Virus record (IMG/VR): IMGVR_UViG_3300033153_009436
Coordinates: 1-52,428 of that record
DNA length: 52,428 nt
Origin: a virus
Reading direction: 5' to 3' (one strand)
The position numbers and the translations under genes were made by a program. Shown one piece after another: positions 6,892 through 51,573 of this stretch. The notes beneath the pieces are model-generated. The model saw only the letters and a program-made list of their open reading frames with translations. It did not search any database and was not told where the DNA came from. Positions within the stretch are counted from its first letter, which is position 1. Each line of letters opens with the position of its first letter.

Positions 6892-9800
6892 ATGAAATGT
6901 TATAATAGAAGTGCTCCAGAATATCAAGTTCTTACATCTAAATATAAGAGTGTACTTGCTGTTGATAGTATTATAAATAAATGGCAAGATCTTCATAAAA
7001 CTGAAAATTTTCCTACCCTTTCAGATGCGGAGGAGATGATGGAGTCTAGAAAGGTGGTTTTTAATTTAAAGAAAAGAGAATTTGCAGAAACTGTTCTTGC
7101 TAATCTTAGCAGAAAGAATTGGATCAGTAAACTTGGAAAAGATTATTATGTAAATAAATCAAGTGGCTTAACAAGAGGGTTTGATGCAGGAGTACTATGG
7201 AAGAATATAAGAAATATTAATAAGTATCTAGAGTTTAAAAATATTCCTTTAGAAACAATAGAAATACAAAAGAAAAAACCATATAGGATCACTGTTAAAG
7301 AAAATTTATTTACAAGACAAGATATCATACAAGAGAGTAGGGAAAATGATGGGGTTCATACTGCAGATGTGATTGAACATTTAGTAAGAATGTTTCCTGG
7401 AGTAAATGTACAAGCAGTAAGTGTGGCTGCTGCTAAGGAATACTATGATCGTCTTCCTACATGGCAAAAAGCAAAACTTTCTTTTGATCAGGTGAAATCT
7501 TATTATGTAAATAACCAGGTAAAACTTATAGAAGGAAGAACCACTGCAGAAACTTCTATAGAAGAGATACTACATCCTTTTATAGATGGTATAAAAAATG
7601 ATAACATTAAACTATTTGAGGGTCTCTTGTCTGAAGCAAAGAAGAACTTTCCTCAACTTACTCAACAGATTGAAGATTCTTATACAGAGCGAAGAGGGTT
7701 TACTACTGAAGAAAGAGATCTGGAACTTGTAACTCAAGCTCTCTCAAGACATTTTAATAAAGAATTTAAAGAAGAACCCACTATAGGTTGGGAAGCTAAA
7801 GTTAAAGAATTTTTGGAGTGGTTCATGAATATAATAGAGAACCTTCATGAATATCTTACTGGAAAAGGTTTACAAGTTAGTGTTATAAATCCTAATGCAA
7901 CTATGACAGATCTTGCAAGACTTTTAAACACTAAAGATCTGGAGTTTACAACAGAAGAAGCTGTAAGTAGAAAGATAAGGTATTCTCTAAATCCTGAGAA
8001 GAAAAAAATGTTAGATAAGATCATGGGACCTGCTAATCCTGTACAGAAGGCATTAATGATGAAGATGTTTCATCTGGCTATAACAAGTAAGAAGGATACA
8101 GAAGGTTCATTAACTGCTAATGTTAGTGAACTTACGGGAAGTGATCCTTTAGTTGTATTGAATGAACCAAACCACACCTATTATGATCTGGAAACAGGTG
8201 AGGAATATACATCTGTAACAAAAGCAATTAAAGGAACATTTGTTAATAAAGGAGATAAGCAATTAAATCTTGATATTGGAAATGATTTTGATGCAATAGC
8301 AGATGGACTGGCAGCAGGTCTCACATATGAAGAGATACTTCCTAGATTAGTGGTAGTTCATAAATCAATGAAAAAGGTAGGAAAAGGAAAAGATGCGTTT
8401 ACTGTCTCAAATGCATTCATAGCATATAACCAGCTATTAGGTACAATAGAAACTATAAAACAGAATGGTTCAATTATAATACCACAGGTTATATTTGCAG
8501 ATGCAGATTCAAAGATAGCAGGAATGGCAGACTTGGTAGTCATTAGTCCTGAAGGAAAAATAGGAATCATAGATCTCAAAACAGGGAAAGGACCAATAAA
8601 GGCAGCAGGCTATGATAAACCACACCCATTAGAAAAGGATAGTATTCTTAAAGAAAAAGGTGTAGATGAACTCTCAACTAGAAACCAGCATGGTATACAA
8701 GTTAATACTTATAGACGTATGGTGGAGAATCTAGGATATGAAGTTTTAGATCAACAATCATTTGGCATATCTACTCTTCATATGAATGTTGATATAGAGG
8801 GGTATGGTAAAAAACAAATATTTAAGGATAAATTTGAGTATGATGGTTGGGAATCTCATGCTCCTTCCAAGAATCAACCTTGGGTAGATAAGATTGTTCC
8901 TATTAAGAAAAAGGAGGTATCTGCTGCAGATATAGCAAATGCAGAAGAAGCAGCAGGTGTAGATAATCCTACTAGAGATGAAGATTTTTTATCTGATGAG
9001 GATGCTATGCCAGAAGAAATAGAGACTGGTGCATTATATGCAGTTCTCTTTGAAGCACTTCAAGATTTTACAATAGGTCTAAAGAAGAGAAAAGAAGCTA
9101 TTGAGCTAATGAGAGATGGCATTTTTCTTGATAAAACAAGACAAGAAAATGTAGAAAATATAGCAGATACAATGTCAAAAATAAATGTAGCTCTTAATGA
9201 GGGAAGAGATGCTGTTGAGATAGTATACACAGAGTTATTAAGAGATTCAATTGCTGAGATTAAAAAATTTACTGAGTATATTAAGGATCCTATAAATTTT
9301 AATAAGAATAAAACTCAAAGTACACTTGTTTTGAAGCTCATGTCTGAGCTCAATAAACTTGAGACTGTCACAGCAGCTGATGGAACAAGAACTCAAGGTC
9401 TTATTGATGAAGCAATGGATAATTATTTTAGATCTTTTGTTATAGATAACTCTAATAGAGATTTTTCACCAGAAGATTTAGATGAGTTAATGACTAAGGC
9501 TAAAGATATAAGTTTATGGGAAGCAAGTTCATATGATCTAGATAGTTCATCTGATCCGCTCTCAGCACTGATGGCCAAACTGTATAAAAGAAAAAAACAA
9601 GAAGTATTAGATAGAGTTGATAATAGGAATAATAGTATAAGAGTAGTGCTGGCAAAACTTTTAAAACTATCTAATGGTAACAAAATTGACTATAGCTTCA
9701 TGTTACAAGAAGATAATACACGTTATATTCAAGAGATAGGATATGATTATTTTAGAATGGCCGCAGATCTTAGAAATGATATATATGCAGATGAAGATAT

Positions 9801-12396
9801 GAATGAGGGTGAGTATATATTCATAGAAGATCTTGAAACTGCTAAACCAGAAGATATTGCTTTTAATAAAGAGCTTTATAAGAGAAAGAAAAAATATACA
9901 GAATTTTTAAGATCAGAAATAAAAACATCAGAGGGTTATAAAGATGGTACTTATCATAGATATACAAAAGAATTTAAAGTATTACGTGCAAAGTATCAAA
10001 TATATAATCCTATAGGGAATGGGTTTTGGGAAAGAAGGAAAGATGTATCAGATGCAGCCTATGCAAGATTTGAGGCTAGAGAATTTGATGTAAGAGATGC
10101 ACAGTTTGCTACATTTGATTCTAACAATGAATTTACTGGAGTAACTAGACTTGATACAATTAGAGTGCCTAAGAAAAAGCATAGTGAAATAAGATCAGTA
10201 AGTGCTCCTACACAAAGCCAGCCCAATGGTAAGGATATGCGGGATGCTAAATGGGTTAAACTGATGAATCCAGATAGTGCTTTAGGGGAAGCTCAGAAGG
10301 ATTTTTATTTAATGTTTAGAAGAATGTTTGAAGAGGAACTTCTAGCAAAACTGCCTATGTCAGTACGAGATAATATGCTGGGTAAGATTCCATTACAAAA
10401 AGATGCATTATATGATACATTAAAAGATAAACCTAATATTGTAACACGTCTCTGGGCCAAAGCTACAAGAAGTGCAACTGATTTCTTTACTGAGACAGGA
10501 TCTGCTAAAAAAGTTATGACAGATGAGAATGGTAATTTTATTGATACACTTCCAATATGGATGGTGGGTAGTCCAAGAAATGAGAAGGCACTTAAGACTA
10601 TTGAGAATAAAATTATGGCTCTTAAGAAAAATTATAATAGTGGAGCTCTTTCAACTTTACAATATGAAGAACAAAAGCAAGAACTTGAAGGAAAAAGAAG
10701 TAGAATATTAGCACAACCTACACGAGATGAAATAAGTAAAGATTTAGGAGATAGCTTGCTTAGGTTTAGCCACATGGCTGAGAATTATGAGGTGATGGGA
10801 ACTATAGAAGATACTCTCACAGGAATGATAAAGATCTTAGAAAAGAGAGAATATACTCCTGCAAGTGGAGCTAAACTGATGGGTAGTATAAAAGGTAAAA
10901 TGAAAGAAGTGGGCATTCCAGGTGTATCTACTGGTGGTGAAGCTGAAATAGTAAAGAGAGCCAAGAAATGGATGAAAATGGTTTACTATGATAATGATAA
11001 AATGACAAGAAACTGGTTTGACAAGGCTACTGCAGGTCTTATAAGGTATTCATCTCTTTCTTATGTTGCATTTAACCCATTTGGAAATATCAATAACTAT
11101 ACAATAGGTAGAATTAATAATGCAATTGAACAAGCTGGCGGATTATTCTTTGGAACTAAAGAATATACAAGAGCTACATATGAATTTAATAAAAGAGGTC
11201 TTTCTGATGTAGTAAGAAAGACATCATACTTGGCAACTAAAAAAGCTTATGAAAAGTATATACCTCATAGTAAGTATGAAGTACTAGTAGAACTTTATAG
11301 AATGATGGATGCTAAATCTGATATTCGTGAGTCTGGACAATTTGACAAAAAAGAAACTTTGTGGGATAAGTTTACGGGATTTGGATATATGCTACAAGAT
11401 GCTGCTGAATATAATGTACAAACTAAAGTAGGTATGGCTGTCTTGATGACTAAACAGATTAAGAATAGTAAAACAGGTGAAACATTAAGTTTATATGATG
11501 CATATACGCTTAATGGGGATGGTACAGCCACATTAAAGGAAGGTTATGATACTTTAATAGATAGAGAAGGTAAGGAACTTAAAGATTTTAGTAATGATGT
11601 ACGTTATGATATACGTAATGAGATACGTGAAGTTAATAAGCAGATCCATGGTAACTATGCTTACGAGGACAGAATGGTTATACAGTCACACGCATTAGGA
11701 GAATTAGGAGCTCAGTTTCATAAATGGGTTATTCCTGCAATTAAGGCAAGATTTAGACCTGAATATTTTGATGAAAATGTAGGTTGGTTAGAGGGAAGAT
11801 ATTTATCAATGTGGAGTTTTATGAAATATGCAGCTACACATATAGGAGAAATGCAGAAGTGGAGTACTAATTTTCAAGAGCAAGTTAGAGGAGGACCAGA
11901 GCAATCTAGAATGAAAATGCTAAATGTATGGAGAACTTCAGCTGAGTTGGCATTAATGATGACTACTGTAATAACAGCAATACTGCTTGAGATGCTATTT
12001 GAAGATGATGATGATGACTCAGTTTTACAAAAGAGACTTGAGAATGCATTAATTTACCAAGCTGACAGAGCACACAAAGAAATGATTCAGTTTATGCCTT
12101 TTCTTCCACCATTCACTGGTACTAAACAAATTTACCAAATGATGAAGTCTCCAATTGCATCTACCAGGACACTAGGTGAGCTGGCAGAGGCATTATCAGC
12201 AACAATGGACTATGGATATGGAAAGATGTTCCTGAGTGAGAAAGAATTTAGAACTAATCCTAAGTATGTGTACCAACAGAAGCCAAGAAAAGGGTACCTT
12301 AAGTTGGCAAAACAATGGATGGATGCTGTACCTATTCTATATGGTATACAAAGATGGTATGGATATGATAGACAGAAAAGTTTTTATATTAAATAA
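6892..12396 (+). CDS. Giant virion protein with embedded PD-(D/E)XK nuclease domain
   Basis: 1834 residues, next to the virion RNA polymerase as in crAss-like genomes, so probably a co-injected cargo protein. Around residues 440-610 there is a RecB/Cas4-like nuclease core: a YYDLETGEEYTSVTKAI segment, D547 in GMADLVV, D561-x-K563 in IIDLKTG, and a Q603-x3-Y607 motif. A hydrophobic stretch at about 1683-1703 is followed by a run of acidic residues (EDDDDD), which could cross or touch a membrane during ejection. The C-terminal third is basic. The nuclease residues look intact. What it cuts, and whether it acts in the virion or after injection, cannot be read from the sequence. Confidence 0.8.
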   Translation: MKCYNRSAPEYQVLTSKYKSVLAVDSIINKWQDLHKTENFPTLSDAEEMMESRKVVFNLKKREFAETVLANLSRKNWISKLGKDYYVNKSSGLTRGFDAGVLWKNIRNINKYLEFKNIPLETIEIQKKKPYRITVKENLFTRQDIIQESRENDGVHTADVIEHLVRMFPGVNVQAVSVAAAKEYYDRLPTWQKAKLSFDQVKSYYVNNQVKLIEGRTTAETSIEEILHPFIDGIKNDNIKLFEGLLSEAKKNFPQLTQQIEDSYTERRGFTTEERDLELVTQALSRHFNKEFKEEPTIGWEAKVKEFLEWFMNIIENLHEYLTGKGLQVSVINPNATMTDLARLLNTKDLEFTTEEAVSRKIRYSLNPEKKKMLDKIMGPANPVQKALMMKMFHLAITSKKDTEGSLTANVSELTGSDPLVVLNEPNHTYYDLETGEEYTSVTKAIKGTFVNKGDKQLNLDIGNDFDAIADGLAAGLTYEEILPRLVVVHKSMKKVGKGKDAFTVSNAFIAYNQLLGTIETIKQNGSIIIPQVIFADADSKIAGMADLVVISPEGKIGIIDLKTGKGPIKAAGYDKPHPLEKDSILKEKGVDELSTRNQHGIQVNTYRRMVENLGYEVLDQQSFGISTLHMNVDIEGYGKKQIFKDKFEYDGWESHAPSKNQPWVDKIVPIKKKEVSAADIANAEEAAGVDNPTRDEDFLSDEDAMPEEIETGALYAVLFEALQDFTIGLKKRKEAIELMRDGIFLDKTRQENVENIADTMSKINVALNEGRDAVEIVYTELLRDSIAEIKKFTEYIKDPINFNKNKTQSTLVLKLMSELNKLETVTAADGTRTQGLIDEAMDNYFRSFVIDNSNRDFSPEDLDELMTKAKDISLWEASSYDLDSSSDPLSALMAKLYKRKKQEVLDRVDNRNNSIRVVLAKLLKLSNGNKIDYSFMLQEDNTRYIQEIGYDYFRMAADLRNDIYADEDMNEGEYIFIEDLETAKPEDIAFNKELYKRKKKYTEFLRSEIKTSEGYKDGTYHRYTKEFKVLRAKYQIYNPIGNGFWERRKDVSDAAYARFEAREFDVRDAQFATFDSNNEFTGVTRLDTIRVPKKKHSEIRSVSAPTQSQPNGKDMRDAKWVKLMNPDSALGEAQKDFYLMFRRMFEEELLAKLPMSVRDNMLGKIPLQKDALYDTLKDKPNIVTRLWAKATRSATDFFTETGSAKKVMTDENGNFIDTLPIWMVGSPRNEKALKTIENKIMALKKNYNSGALSTLQYEEQKQELEGKRSRILAQPTRDEISKDLGDSLLRFSHMAENYEVMGTIEDTLTGMIKILEKREYTPASGAKLMGSIKGKMKEVGIPGVSTGGEAEIVKRAKKWMKMVYYDNDKMTRNWFDKATAGLIRYSSLSYVAFNPFGNINNYTIGRINNAIEQAGGLFFGTKEYTRATYEFNKRGLSDVVRKTSYLATKKAYEKYIPHSKYEVLVELYRMMDAKSDIRESGQFDKKETLWDKFTGFGYMLQDAAEYNVQTKVGMAVLMTKQIKNSKTGETLSLYDAYTLNGDGTATLKEGYDTLIDREGKELKDFSNDVRYDIRNEIREVNKQIHGNYAYEDRMVIQSHALGELGAQFHKWVIPAIKARFRPEYFDENVGWLEGRYLSMWSFMKYAATHIGEMQKWSTNFQEQVRGGPEQSRMKMLNVWRTSAELALMMTTVITAILLEMLFEDDDDDSVLQKRLENALIYQADRAHKEMIQFMPFLPPFTGTKQIYQMMKSPIASTRTLGELAEALSATMDYGYGKMFLSEKEFRTNPKYVYQQKPRKGYLKLAKQWMDAVPILYGIQRWYGYDRQKSFYIK

Positions 12397-28112: not shown

Positions 28113-28132
28113 TGGTTTTAAATTTAATTGTT

Positions 28133-28200
28133 AAAAAGAACGGAGTGAAACCACGGACAGTGGTGGCTGTCCAATGGTTTCAACTATGGCAACTCCGTTC
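28133..28200 (-). terminator. Three-tier terminator hairpin of the candidate RNA
   Basis: GAACGGAGT (28138-28146) pairs with ACTCCGTTC (28192-28200); inside it GAAACCA (28147-28153) with TGGTTTC (28075+, at 28175-28181); inside that GGACAG (28155-28160) with CTGTCC (28167-28172). On the minus strand the hairpin is followed by TTTTT (28137-28133). The 22 paired positions make it the strongest fold in the window; it separates the upstream unit from the ligase gene. Confidence 0.8.
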
Positions 28201-28585
28201 AATAAAAAATAAAGCTATCAAGAGTAGAGCATTTCACCATATACTAGTGTTCCATATAGTATACACCAGATGATACTCCTGAATTAACTAGCGGCTCCGT
28301 GCATTAGCCCCAACATTACTAAGGGCACAAACTAGTTATTTTTGAATGTACTGATTCCACGGGTTGCTCATCATCCGCTCAGGGACCTACTACCAACACA
28401 AGGCTGGGTTCAATATAAATACACCTTTTTTTACCAAGGTTTACACAGACTTAGCATAACATTGCCATAACGTAATACATTCAAACTTTAAAATTATAAT
28501 GTGTATAGAGGCTATAACTCTATCCATACAGGTATTGACTAGTTTACCTGAGACTCCAGCATGGTTTTCACGTACAGAGCACACA
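28133..28585 (-). ncRNA. Candidate structured non-coding RNA, about 450 nt
   Basis: No plausible gene on either strand, but many complementary segments: CAGGTA/TACCTG (28529-28550), ATAGAG/CTCTAT (28505-28523), a 10-bp long-range helix 28341-28350 with 28476-28485, AACTAG/CTAGTT (28286-28291 with 28332-28337), TATACTA/TAGTATA (28240-28263), and a compound 3' hairpin. The loop of the first hairpin contains AACTAGT, complementary to other ACTAG sites, so a loop-loop contact is possible. Neighbours are all on the minus strand and the strong terminator fits minus-strand transcription. No match to RNase P, tmRNA or a tRNA was seen. The 5' end is not defined. Confidence 0.6.
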
Positions 28586-43366: not shown

Positions 43367-43387
43367 TGTTTATTATTTTAAAATTAG

Positions 43388-43460
43388 TAGCGGGTATAGG
43401 ATTTGAACCTATGACCTTCAGGATATGAGCCTGACGAGCTGACCACTGCTCTAACCCGCT
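43388..43460 (-). tRNA. tRNA-Met (anticodon CAT)
   Basis: On the minus strand a full cloverleaf: acceptor AGCGGGT with ACCCGCT, D-arm GAGC/GCTC, anticodon stem TCAGG/CCTGA with loop CTCATAT, T-arm with GGTTCAAATCC. CCA is not encoded. CAT can also mean tRNA-Ile with lysidine; the acceptor begins A-U so it is less likely an initiator. It lies between two small genes, 3 bases from the upstream stop. Confidence 0.93.
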
Positions 43461-49968: not shown

Positions 49969-50001
49969 ACAAATATTGGTCTATTATAAAATGGGTTTAT
50001 A

Positions 50002-50217
50002 TCATTCATTTATTTTCTTTATTGAGGTTACATTAATTGGAGTAAGATCATCAAAATAGATAGTATATAAAAAGCCACCCTGTTTTTTTTGTTTTTTACT
50101 AACATCCTCCCAATGTAAAGAATCCTTCCAAATTGGACTGTCTTTTACATTCTTCCTAATATTTTTATCATCAATAGATGAAAATACTTGTTCTAGCATT
50201 AACTTTTTGGTTTTCAT
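50002..50217 (-). CDS. Hypothetical small protein after the large RNA locus
   Basis: 71 residues, basic, with a beta-type C-terminal half (GGFLYTIYFDDLTPINVTSI). It is the first gene downstream of the 775-base structured stretch and starts 22 bases after its closing helix. Not recognised. Confidence 0.52.
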   Translation of the reverse strand: MKTKKLMLEQVFSSIDDKNIRKNVKDSPIWKDSLHWEDVSKKQKKQGGFLYTIYFDDLTPINVTSIKKINE

Positions 50218-50239
50218 AAATTTCTGGTTTTAAAAGGTT

Positions 50240-51014
50240 AGAATAAAAGGTTGAGTGTTGGCCTTTAGTATTATCATTCTGATCCTTTTCAAGATCTTAC
50301 ACACACACTGCATTACGGCAGGTAGATAATATGTTCACGTGAAGTGAAGTTCACGCTCTCTTTACAATTGGGGTCATAGATTCCTTTTCTTACTAACTTT
50401 CTTCCCAGAATTAACAGAATGGCTTCTGCTAGTTAAATAATACTCATTCCTCTCATCATCAGCCTTGCGAGCTTCTAATGCCTACATATTTCAGCAGGAT
50501 AAGAACATTGTTGCCTTTAGTGGCATCCCAAAAGTCTCCAAGTTATTTTGCTTTTTATCTAAATTACTAAAATTTAGTTTAAAGGTTCCAGGTAAATGAC
50601 AGAAGACACTTAGAGTTTATATAATCATGCTACCTTTGGGGTAGTTTAGACTATAACTCCTATCTGTTTTAAGCTGCCAAGCCTACTCACTACGATACAT
50701 TTAACATCAGTGTATTTCTACAACCAAATCAAAATGTCAGTTGATTACAGCTTCACATCCGGCAAGATGTTACTACCATAACTTATCACAATTCTTATTG
50801 ATGTTTCCATCTCAATCACCAGCCTGTCTGATGATCTATATCTCTAGCAACCTGTAGGCCCATTCCAAGACATAGATATTGTAATACTCTTCAGTGAAAT
50901 GCAAGTAAACTTACATCCCCAACCTTGTGCCTTATACACTTAGTCAGGTTTATCCCATTACTGGTTTATCCTTAAGGCCACGAGAGCTGACCTATTACCC
51001 CGAAGGGTTATTCT
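50240..51014 (-). ncRNA. Candidate large structured non-coding RNA, about 775 nt
   Basis: No plausible gene here on either strand. The ends pair: TTATTCT at 51008-51014 with AGAATAA at 50240-50246. Read on the minus strand, local hairpins carry RNA-type loops: ACCC-UUCG-GGGT (50997-51008), GATG-GAAA-CATC (50800-50811), TGTA-GAAA-TACA (50711-50722), a GCAA loop (50461-50473). Other stems are ATGTAAG/TTGCAT-type (50899-50916), CTACC/GGTAG (50630-50644), CTAAATT/AATTTAG (50559-50577), CAGAA/TTCTG (50415-50428), CGTGAA/TTCACG (50338-50355). Size, phage location and tRNA-bearing neighbourhood recall giant ornate RNAs such as GOLLD or ROOL, but I cannot confirm a family. Confidence 0.65.
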
Positions 51015-51173
51015 TTATTCTCTAGTTTGTTCATTACACCATTGACATTCATGAAATCTATCACATGTACATTCAATAATGCCATAATTAACTGAATCTA
51101 ATGCTGCATCACCATTTAATAATGATACATCTATAACATCTACAATTCTACAAATATCCTTATCTTTATCCAT
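51015..51173 (-). CDS. Hypothetical small cysteine protein (52 aa)
   Basis: 52 residues, acidic start (MDKDKDICRIVDVIDVSLLN) and a Cys-rich end with CTCDRFHECQWC, which could bind zinc. Its TAA is directly before the start of the candidate large RNA, so the two may share a transcript. Missed by length filters. Not recognised. Confidence 0.5.
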   Translation of the reverse strand: MDKDKDICRIVDVIDVSLLNGDAALDSVNYGIIECTCDRFHECQWCNEQTRE

Positions 51174-51189
51174 ATATTTCTATTTATTA

Positions 51190-51573
51190 TTAATTTAAAC
51201 AAACTTCAAATTTATGAAATTTAAAAGTTGGTACATAAGTATCTTCATCCTCCTCTATTTCCAAATACTCTCTTGTCATTTCAATTAAACCCATTTCACT
51301 TGCTATTACAGCAAGTGGTTCACTCTTAACACAAGCCTTTATTATTTCTTCAGTAGTTGGTCTCTTGAAATCATATTTATCATCCATATGATGCTCACCT
51401 GTACTATTATACCAACCAAAATTACGGTTATTAGAAGTAAGATATTCATTACCTTCTGTCTCTGCAAAAATATCACCTGCAATATAACCATCAGCTATAC
51501 CCACTTCTTCACCCTTGTATATACAAAAGGGATTTCTATTTATAAGTTTAAAAGTTCCTTTTATTTTTATCAT
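51190..51573 (-). CDS. Hypothetical protein
   Basis: 127 residues, acidic, with a beta-rich start (IKGTFKLINRNPFCIYKGEE) and a middle helix (EEIIKACVKSEPLAVIASEM). No membrane segment. It overlaps the upstream membrane protein gene by 26 bases. Not recognised. Confidence 0.55.
   Translation of the reverse strand: MIKIKGTFKLINRNPFCIYKGEEVGIADGYIAGDIFAETEGNEYLTSNNRNFGWYNSTGEHHMDDKYDFKRPTTEEIIKACVKSEPLAVIASEMGLIEMTREYLEIEEDEDTYVPTFKFHKFEVCLN

Follow-up and report, generated by a model that had tools for sequence, protein, structure and literature searches.

The stretch of 52,428 nt analysed here, hereafter the window, is IMG/VR record IMGVR_UViG_3300033153_009436 and belongs to a crAss-like phage: its 1834-aa protein (6892-12396) matches the RNA-polymerase subunits of Bacteroides crAss-like isolates and of crAssphage records. 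Between a 71-aa ORF (50002-50217) and a 52-aa ORF (51015-51173), both on the minus strand, lies a region (50218-51014) without a gene on either strand. It is the largest gene-free gap of the window at 797 nt, followed by gaps of 473 and 368 nt, and the longest ORF inside it, on either strand, is 44 aa. GC content in the gap is 0.33-0.38, against mostly 0.22-0.33 in its surroundings. The sole tRNA of the window, a tRNA-Met at 43387-43460 (ARAGORN), is 6.8 kb from the RNA described below. The second-largest gap (28113-28585, 473 nt) yields no Rfam match at gathering score. Among the neighbouring genes, a small Cys-rich protein (CTCDRFHECQWC / CSCDEVHICQQC) is encoded close to the RNA both in the window (51015-51173) and in another carrier (L092:1029-1208, minus strand), and a 127-aa neighbour protein used as query found no relatives.

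The first-pass annotation had described about 0.8 kb free of genes on both strands and proposed an RNA of about 775 nt over 50240-51014. The gene-free region is confirmed and the structured minus-strand RNA is real, with a conserved extent that is shorter, minus-strand 50993-50247 (~750 nt), its 3' end lying 29 nt upstream of the ATG (50217) of the 71-aa gene on the same strand. The loops named in that annotation are all present on the minus strand: two GAAA loops (GAUG-GAAA-CAUC at 50811-50800 and GAUCUU-GAAA-AGGAUC at about 50297-50282), one of GCAA type (GCUCGCAAGGC at 50472-50462) and a UUCG hairpin (CCC-UUCG-GGG at about 51005-50996), the last seen in the window's sequence alone. Its claimed pairing of the two ends (AGAAUAAA with UUUAUUCU) forms in the window's own fold and is absent from the consensus of the homologues. 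Single-sequence folding gives z = -1.74 for the minus and +1.02 for the plus strand, which favours the former without settling the matter; the strand is settled by the comparative evidence from homologues.

At gathering scores, Rfam searches of the whole window report a tRNA alone and nothing at the RNA. A permissive cmscan aligns the GOLLD model (RF02032) end to end, positions 1-416, with 50664-50248 on the minus strand at 45.8 bits (E=1.4e-10); it is the sole significant match, the runner-up having E=1.6. Because this score, and that of every scored relative (best 122.8 bits), is under the GOLLD gathering score of 150 bits, their significant E-values notwithstanding, we file the RNA as a divergent relative or subfamily of GOLLD and not as a curated member of RF02032. 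The conserved GOLLD 3' domain and its helices are present, the model being aligned whole and the helices showing double changes. Given that the Rfam model has 416 positions, and given the published arrangement of the 5' and 3' domains, we infer that it covers the 3' half of GOLLD only, and a second covariance model, R1, was therefore built from the 5' half alone (core 50783-50975) with canonical GOLLD sequences excluded from it. Run on 17 loci, R1 recovers the source of the model and, in two canonical GOLLDs, L140 and L139, the 5' half directly upstream of the 3' half, with E-values of 2e-12 and 1.4e-8. It does not match the mycobacterial GOLLD L138, in agreement with the published lower conservation of GOLLD 5' regions (PMC12286853). 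A search of RF02032 against 14 control genomes gave no match, and nhmmer between the subfamily and canonical GOLLD gave nothing significant, the kinship being detected by covariance model only. Both halves of the RNA are related to GOLLD.

Among 50 records related by their DNA polymerase, two carry better GOLLD matches (88.8 and 72.6 bits, both below the cut-off), and two IMG/VR pattern scans built from those two recovered about 40 homologous loci in metagenomic phage contigs. Most of them align with the full RF02032 model at 46-123 bits (E down to 5e-36), several members are without any RF02032 match in the searches run, and the nhmmer alignments of most span about 760 nt. G026 and G059 each have a further, weak GOLLD match (20 and 16.5 bits) that was set aside, and ten IMG/VR contigs with the pattern RGCTCGCAAGGCYGAKGRYG were rejected as homologues, having neither a GOLLD nor an R1 match. 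Most of the long carrier contigs have crAss-like polymerase genes; a crAss-like RNA polymerase is found in 12 of 36 carriers, those without a match being nearly all contigs under 60 kb. R1 is positive in 6 of 51 polymerase-related records, the window included and many of the records being fragments, and on this count the RNA looks like an accessory element in crAss-like phages. Neither blastn with the window RNA and three relatives against 50,697 annotated phage records nor a single pattern scanned across 84,980 genomes of bacteria and archaea found a copy.

The comparative set comprises 26 full-length sequences of less than 96% mutual identity, which are 55-64% identical to the window. The consensus that RNAalifold predicts from their alignment has 145 pairs, and compensating changes occur in 117. 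Under a tree-aware null, in which the substitutions of each branch are re-dealt, significance is reached by 52 of the 145 consensus pairs; with the structure slid by one to three columns it is reached by 0-1 of 131-145. The 52 pairs are spread evenly over the two domains (25/73 in the 5' and 27/71 in the 3' domain). A refined structure, to which P17, P18 and three tertiary pairings were added and in which the linker helix was entered as a pseudoknot, pairs in 95.3% of 4296 cells across the 26 sequences, against 34-45% when slid; double changes occur in 131 of its 166 pairs, and none of 500 shuffles equals either value. Because the same alignment partly guided the choice of the refined structure, the tree-aware null is the cleaner test. 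One secondary structure is under strong selection across ~750 nt. Its parts are listed below, with helix and loop numbers assigned by position, from the Rfam layout and the text of PMC12286853, and not by a superposed structure.

50247-50993, minus strand: whole GOLLD-like RNA, 5' then 3' domain (nhmmer homologues, alignment, covariation)
50976-50992, minus strand: 5' hairpin; loop 50986-50983 pairs with junction 50890-50887, two covarying pairs
50783-50975, minus strand: 5' domain core, source of R1; matches the L140 and L139 5' halves
50784-50886, minus strand: 5'-domain multibranch helix, 50886-50878 paired to 50792-50784; double changes in 8/9 pairs
50800-50811, minus strand: candidate L11a, the conserved GAAA loop of a hairpin (alignment, covariation; L11a GAAA in PMC12286853)
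50248-50664, minus strand: 3' domain, whole Rfam GOLLD model
50600-50662, minus strand: P17-equivalent helix, 50662-50657 with 50605-50600; inner hairpin 50644-50630 (covariation)
50536-50615, minus strand: pseudoknot bracketing the linker, 50615-50608 with 50543-50536; double changes in 8/8 pairs
50544-50599, minus strand: variable A/U-rich linker, without a tRNA in this phage (ARAGORN; alignment)
50364-50535, minus strand: P18-equivalent helix, 50535-50530 with 50369-50364, the Rfam bracket helix recovered by covariation; 2/6 pairs non-standard in the window
50454-50480, minus strand: P20-equivalent hairpin with invariant CGCAAG loop (cmscan, alignment, covariation)
50378-50453, minus strand: P21 arm; L21a centre 50422-50421, L21b centre 50405-50404, CCA and UGG here
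50282-50295, minus strand: hairpin with GAAA loop, candidate P26/L26 (cmscan, alignment, covariation)
50247-50265, minus strand: P27, the terminal hairpin, with loop 50258-50255 paired to J24/26 50302-50299, a contact in PMC12286853

In the alignment, the linker between P17 and P18 is poorly conserved and varies in length. An unguided search for covariation outside the secondary structure returned, among its best pairs, the contact between the first hairpin loop and the 5' junction, J24/26 with L27, and L21a with L21b. As the single pairs have E of only ~0.05-1.2 in this all-against-all search, weight is added to them by adjacency and full pairing: the 5' loop-junction contact is paired in all 26 sequences, and J24/26-L27, which is a contact in the GOLLD cryo-EM structure (PMC12286853), in all 26 at three positions, two of them covarying. 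GAAA loops stand at the L11a and L26 positions, as numbered here by inference; GOLLD has a GAAA loop at L11a and adenosines in L26 (PMC12286853). The published L20 kisses J13/15 (PMC12286853); in the subfamily the L20 loop is invariant, and no clear covariation partner for it was found in the 26 sequences.

In the published particle, L21a of one chain pairs with L21a of another, and L21b likewise with L21b (PMC12286853). This self-kissing is not kept in its published form here, since self-pairing of the loop centres is impossible in 11 of the 26 sequences (CC/GG, GG/CC, AC/GU). The centres of L21a/L21b read CC/GG (as in the window), GG/CC, AC/GU or GC/GC, and five switches between these states are placed on the tree; the complementarity of a to b is kept in every state. 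Two or more bases pair in each of the 17 distinct combinations of loops, where permutation would give 12.8 such combinations (p=0.002, relatedness not removed). Hence L21a-L21b has probably switched to a heterotypic contact, which may form between chains or within one, and the loops hint that the halves of a cage would join differently in this subfamily. Set against published GOLLD as a whole, the RNA falls short of the curated score and departs in the L21a/L21b contact, and the testable features apart from L20 are found.

A further difference concerns the 3' flank. Rfam finds six pistol or twister-P1 matches in 37 carrier contigs, all six 3' of the RNA; four are within 6 nt of it and the other two, both pistols, are ~278 nt downstream.

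L124:2050-2111 (plus), L144:330-391 (minus), L143:1404-1465 (plus), L170:32-93 (minus): pistol, above the Rfam cut-off
L150:327-378 (minus), L172:336-387 (minus): twister-P1, below the Rfam cut-off, directly after the RNA 3' end
L145, L147-L149, L155, L157, L158, L160, L171: twister-like 3' flanks, recognised by eye
L145-L149, L155, L158, L160, L170, L171: conserved elements of the 5' flank

The roughly nine flanks recognised by eye share a twister-like core (UAAUGCACC, CCCAAGG or CACAAGG, GUGCAGAG) with a long extra helix; RNAalifold gave no consensus for them because of long insertions. The window itself has no match to the Rfam models for pistol and twister-P1, and in the canonical GOLLD L139 a tRNA lies 10 nt downstream in place of a ribozyme. 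A simple reading of these flanks is that the RNA 3' end would be made by whichever cleaving element adjoins it. Other neighbours include a tRNA-like element, GGCAGUA...UACUGCC, which has a stem resembling a T-arm, is not called by ARAGORN and lies directly 3' of the RNA in L156 (G024 near 98375); at L152:1928-2329, ~0.8 kb downstream of the RNA, a match resembling tmRNA (37 bits, cut-off 47) and, after it, a tRNA; and the two 5'-flank elements listed above (CCAGUAAGUUGCUGGCGU...; GAGAAAGCCAUUCC...GCAGGUAAGAGUCCUGA), which lie just upstream of the RNA and have no Rfam match.

Taken together, it is very probable that this is a noncoding RNA of a divergent GOLLD subfamily that is patchily carried by crAss-like phages. 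That each scored member falls under the curated cut-off would also suit a new class of giant RNA resembling GOLLD by chance or convergence, a reading we consider highly improbable: two independent halves match GOLLD in the correct order and position, and the invariant loops UCAAAAG, CGCAAG and GAAA together with one tertiary contact are shared with GOLLD. The subfamily is preferred over a new class because both halves match and the J24/26-L27 contact covaries. Size and phage setting are all that would recommend another known large RNA; for ROOL, OLE, HEARO and the group I and II introns, 50000-51200 gives no match even with E allowed up to 10, and the whole window gives none at gathering score, by which ROOL identity too was rejected, and the chance of any of them is negligible. 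The same holds for a decayed protein gene or non-functional spacer, which would account for the absence of ORFs and nothing more: the homologues preserve structure and not frame, many of their indels are not multiples of three, and the 131 doubly changed pairs speak against it. The first-pass annotation had thus rightly proposed a large ornate minus-strand RNA of the GOLLD/ROOL kind; of the options it allowed (member, divergent relative, new class), the divergent relative of GOLLD stands and neither a new class nor ROOL is supported. Of the checks it proposed, cmscan and covariation in homologues returned the GOLLD match and abundant compensating changes, and the decayed gene it raised as a counter-explanation is nowhere visible.

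A further alternative is a GOLLD-fold monomer, which could for instance be a long structured leader that controls expression of the 71-aa gene. In its favour are the start of that gene, which lies downstream on the same strand and is not separated from the RNA by a ribozyme or an obvious break, and the change in the L21 loops, the joiners of the half-shells in the known cage, which could pair within a chain. However, the 3' neighbours of the relatives vary (ribozymes, a tRNA-like element, different genes), so a fixed cis target is unlikely, and known GOLLD members oligomerise as RNA alone (PMC12286853). We hold the monomer to be unlikely, if less so than the rejected readings above.

For the GOLLD subfamily the likely mechanism, by analogy with env-38, which forms 14-mers (PMC12286853), would be self-assembly into an RNA cage during infection. 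Many copies of the RNA would assemble protein-free into a hollow particle, its caps made of 5' domains and its ring of 3' domains, with the variable linker facing the interior; L21a is predicted to pair with L21b instead of each with itself as in the known cage. An increase of GOLLD expression in the course of lysis is cited in PMC12286853; more speculatively, the RNA would be made in lytic infection and the cage may hold or shield the linker or some macromolecule. The fuller proposal, in which heterotypic L21a-L21b contacts close the cage and a 3' pistol or twister frees the RNA in several lineages, is put forward tentatively, at somewhat less than an even chance.

These sequences add about 40 diverse members from crAss-like phages that are invisible to annotation at the Rfam cut-off. 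They indicate which contacts evolution has kept (J24/26-L27, 5' loop-junction) and which one it appears to have rewired (L21a/L21b), and the biological reality of the quaternary structure, solved for GOLLD cages in 2025 (env-38: PMC12286853), becomes testable through swap mutants. ROOL, another giant RNA of phages, likewise assembles into a cage (PMC12286853) and has no sequence or structure match to the window RNA. The GOLLDs of huge phages, LR756502 and LR745206 (L139, L140), are found by RF02032 (275 and 287 bits) as well as by R1; they differ in being tRNA-flanked and in their own L21a loop, a palindromic UCGA. The complementarity and co-change of L21a and L21b and the pistol and twister ribozymes beyond the 3' end of some relatives look new; in the open-access literature searched, no description of GOLLD in crAss-like phages or beside ribozymes was found. 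With GOLLD, which is phage-encoded and often near tRNAs, the RNA shares its encoding by phages, the two-domain order, the Rfam 3' helices, a related 5' domain, the variable P17-P18 linker, the invariant loops and the J24/26-L27 contact; unlike GOLLD, it scores far under the Rfam cut-off, has L21a/L21b loops that appear heterotypic and not self-complementary, lacks a tRNA island beside it in the window and, in some relatives, ends next to self-cleaving ribozymes.
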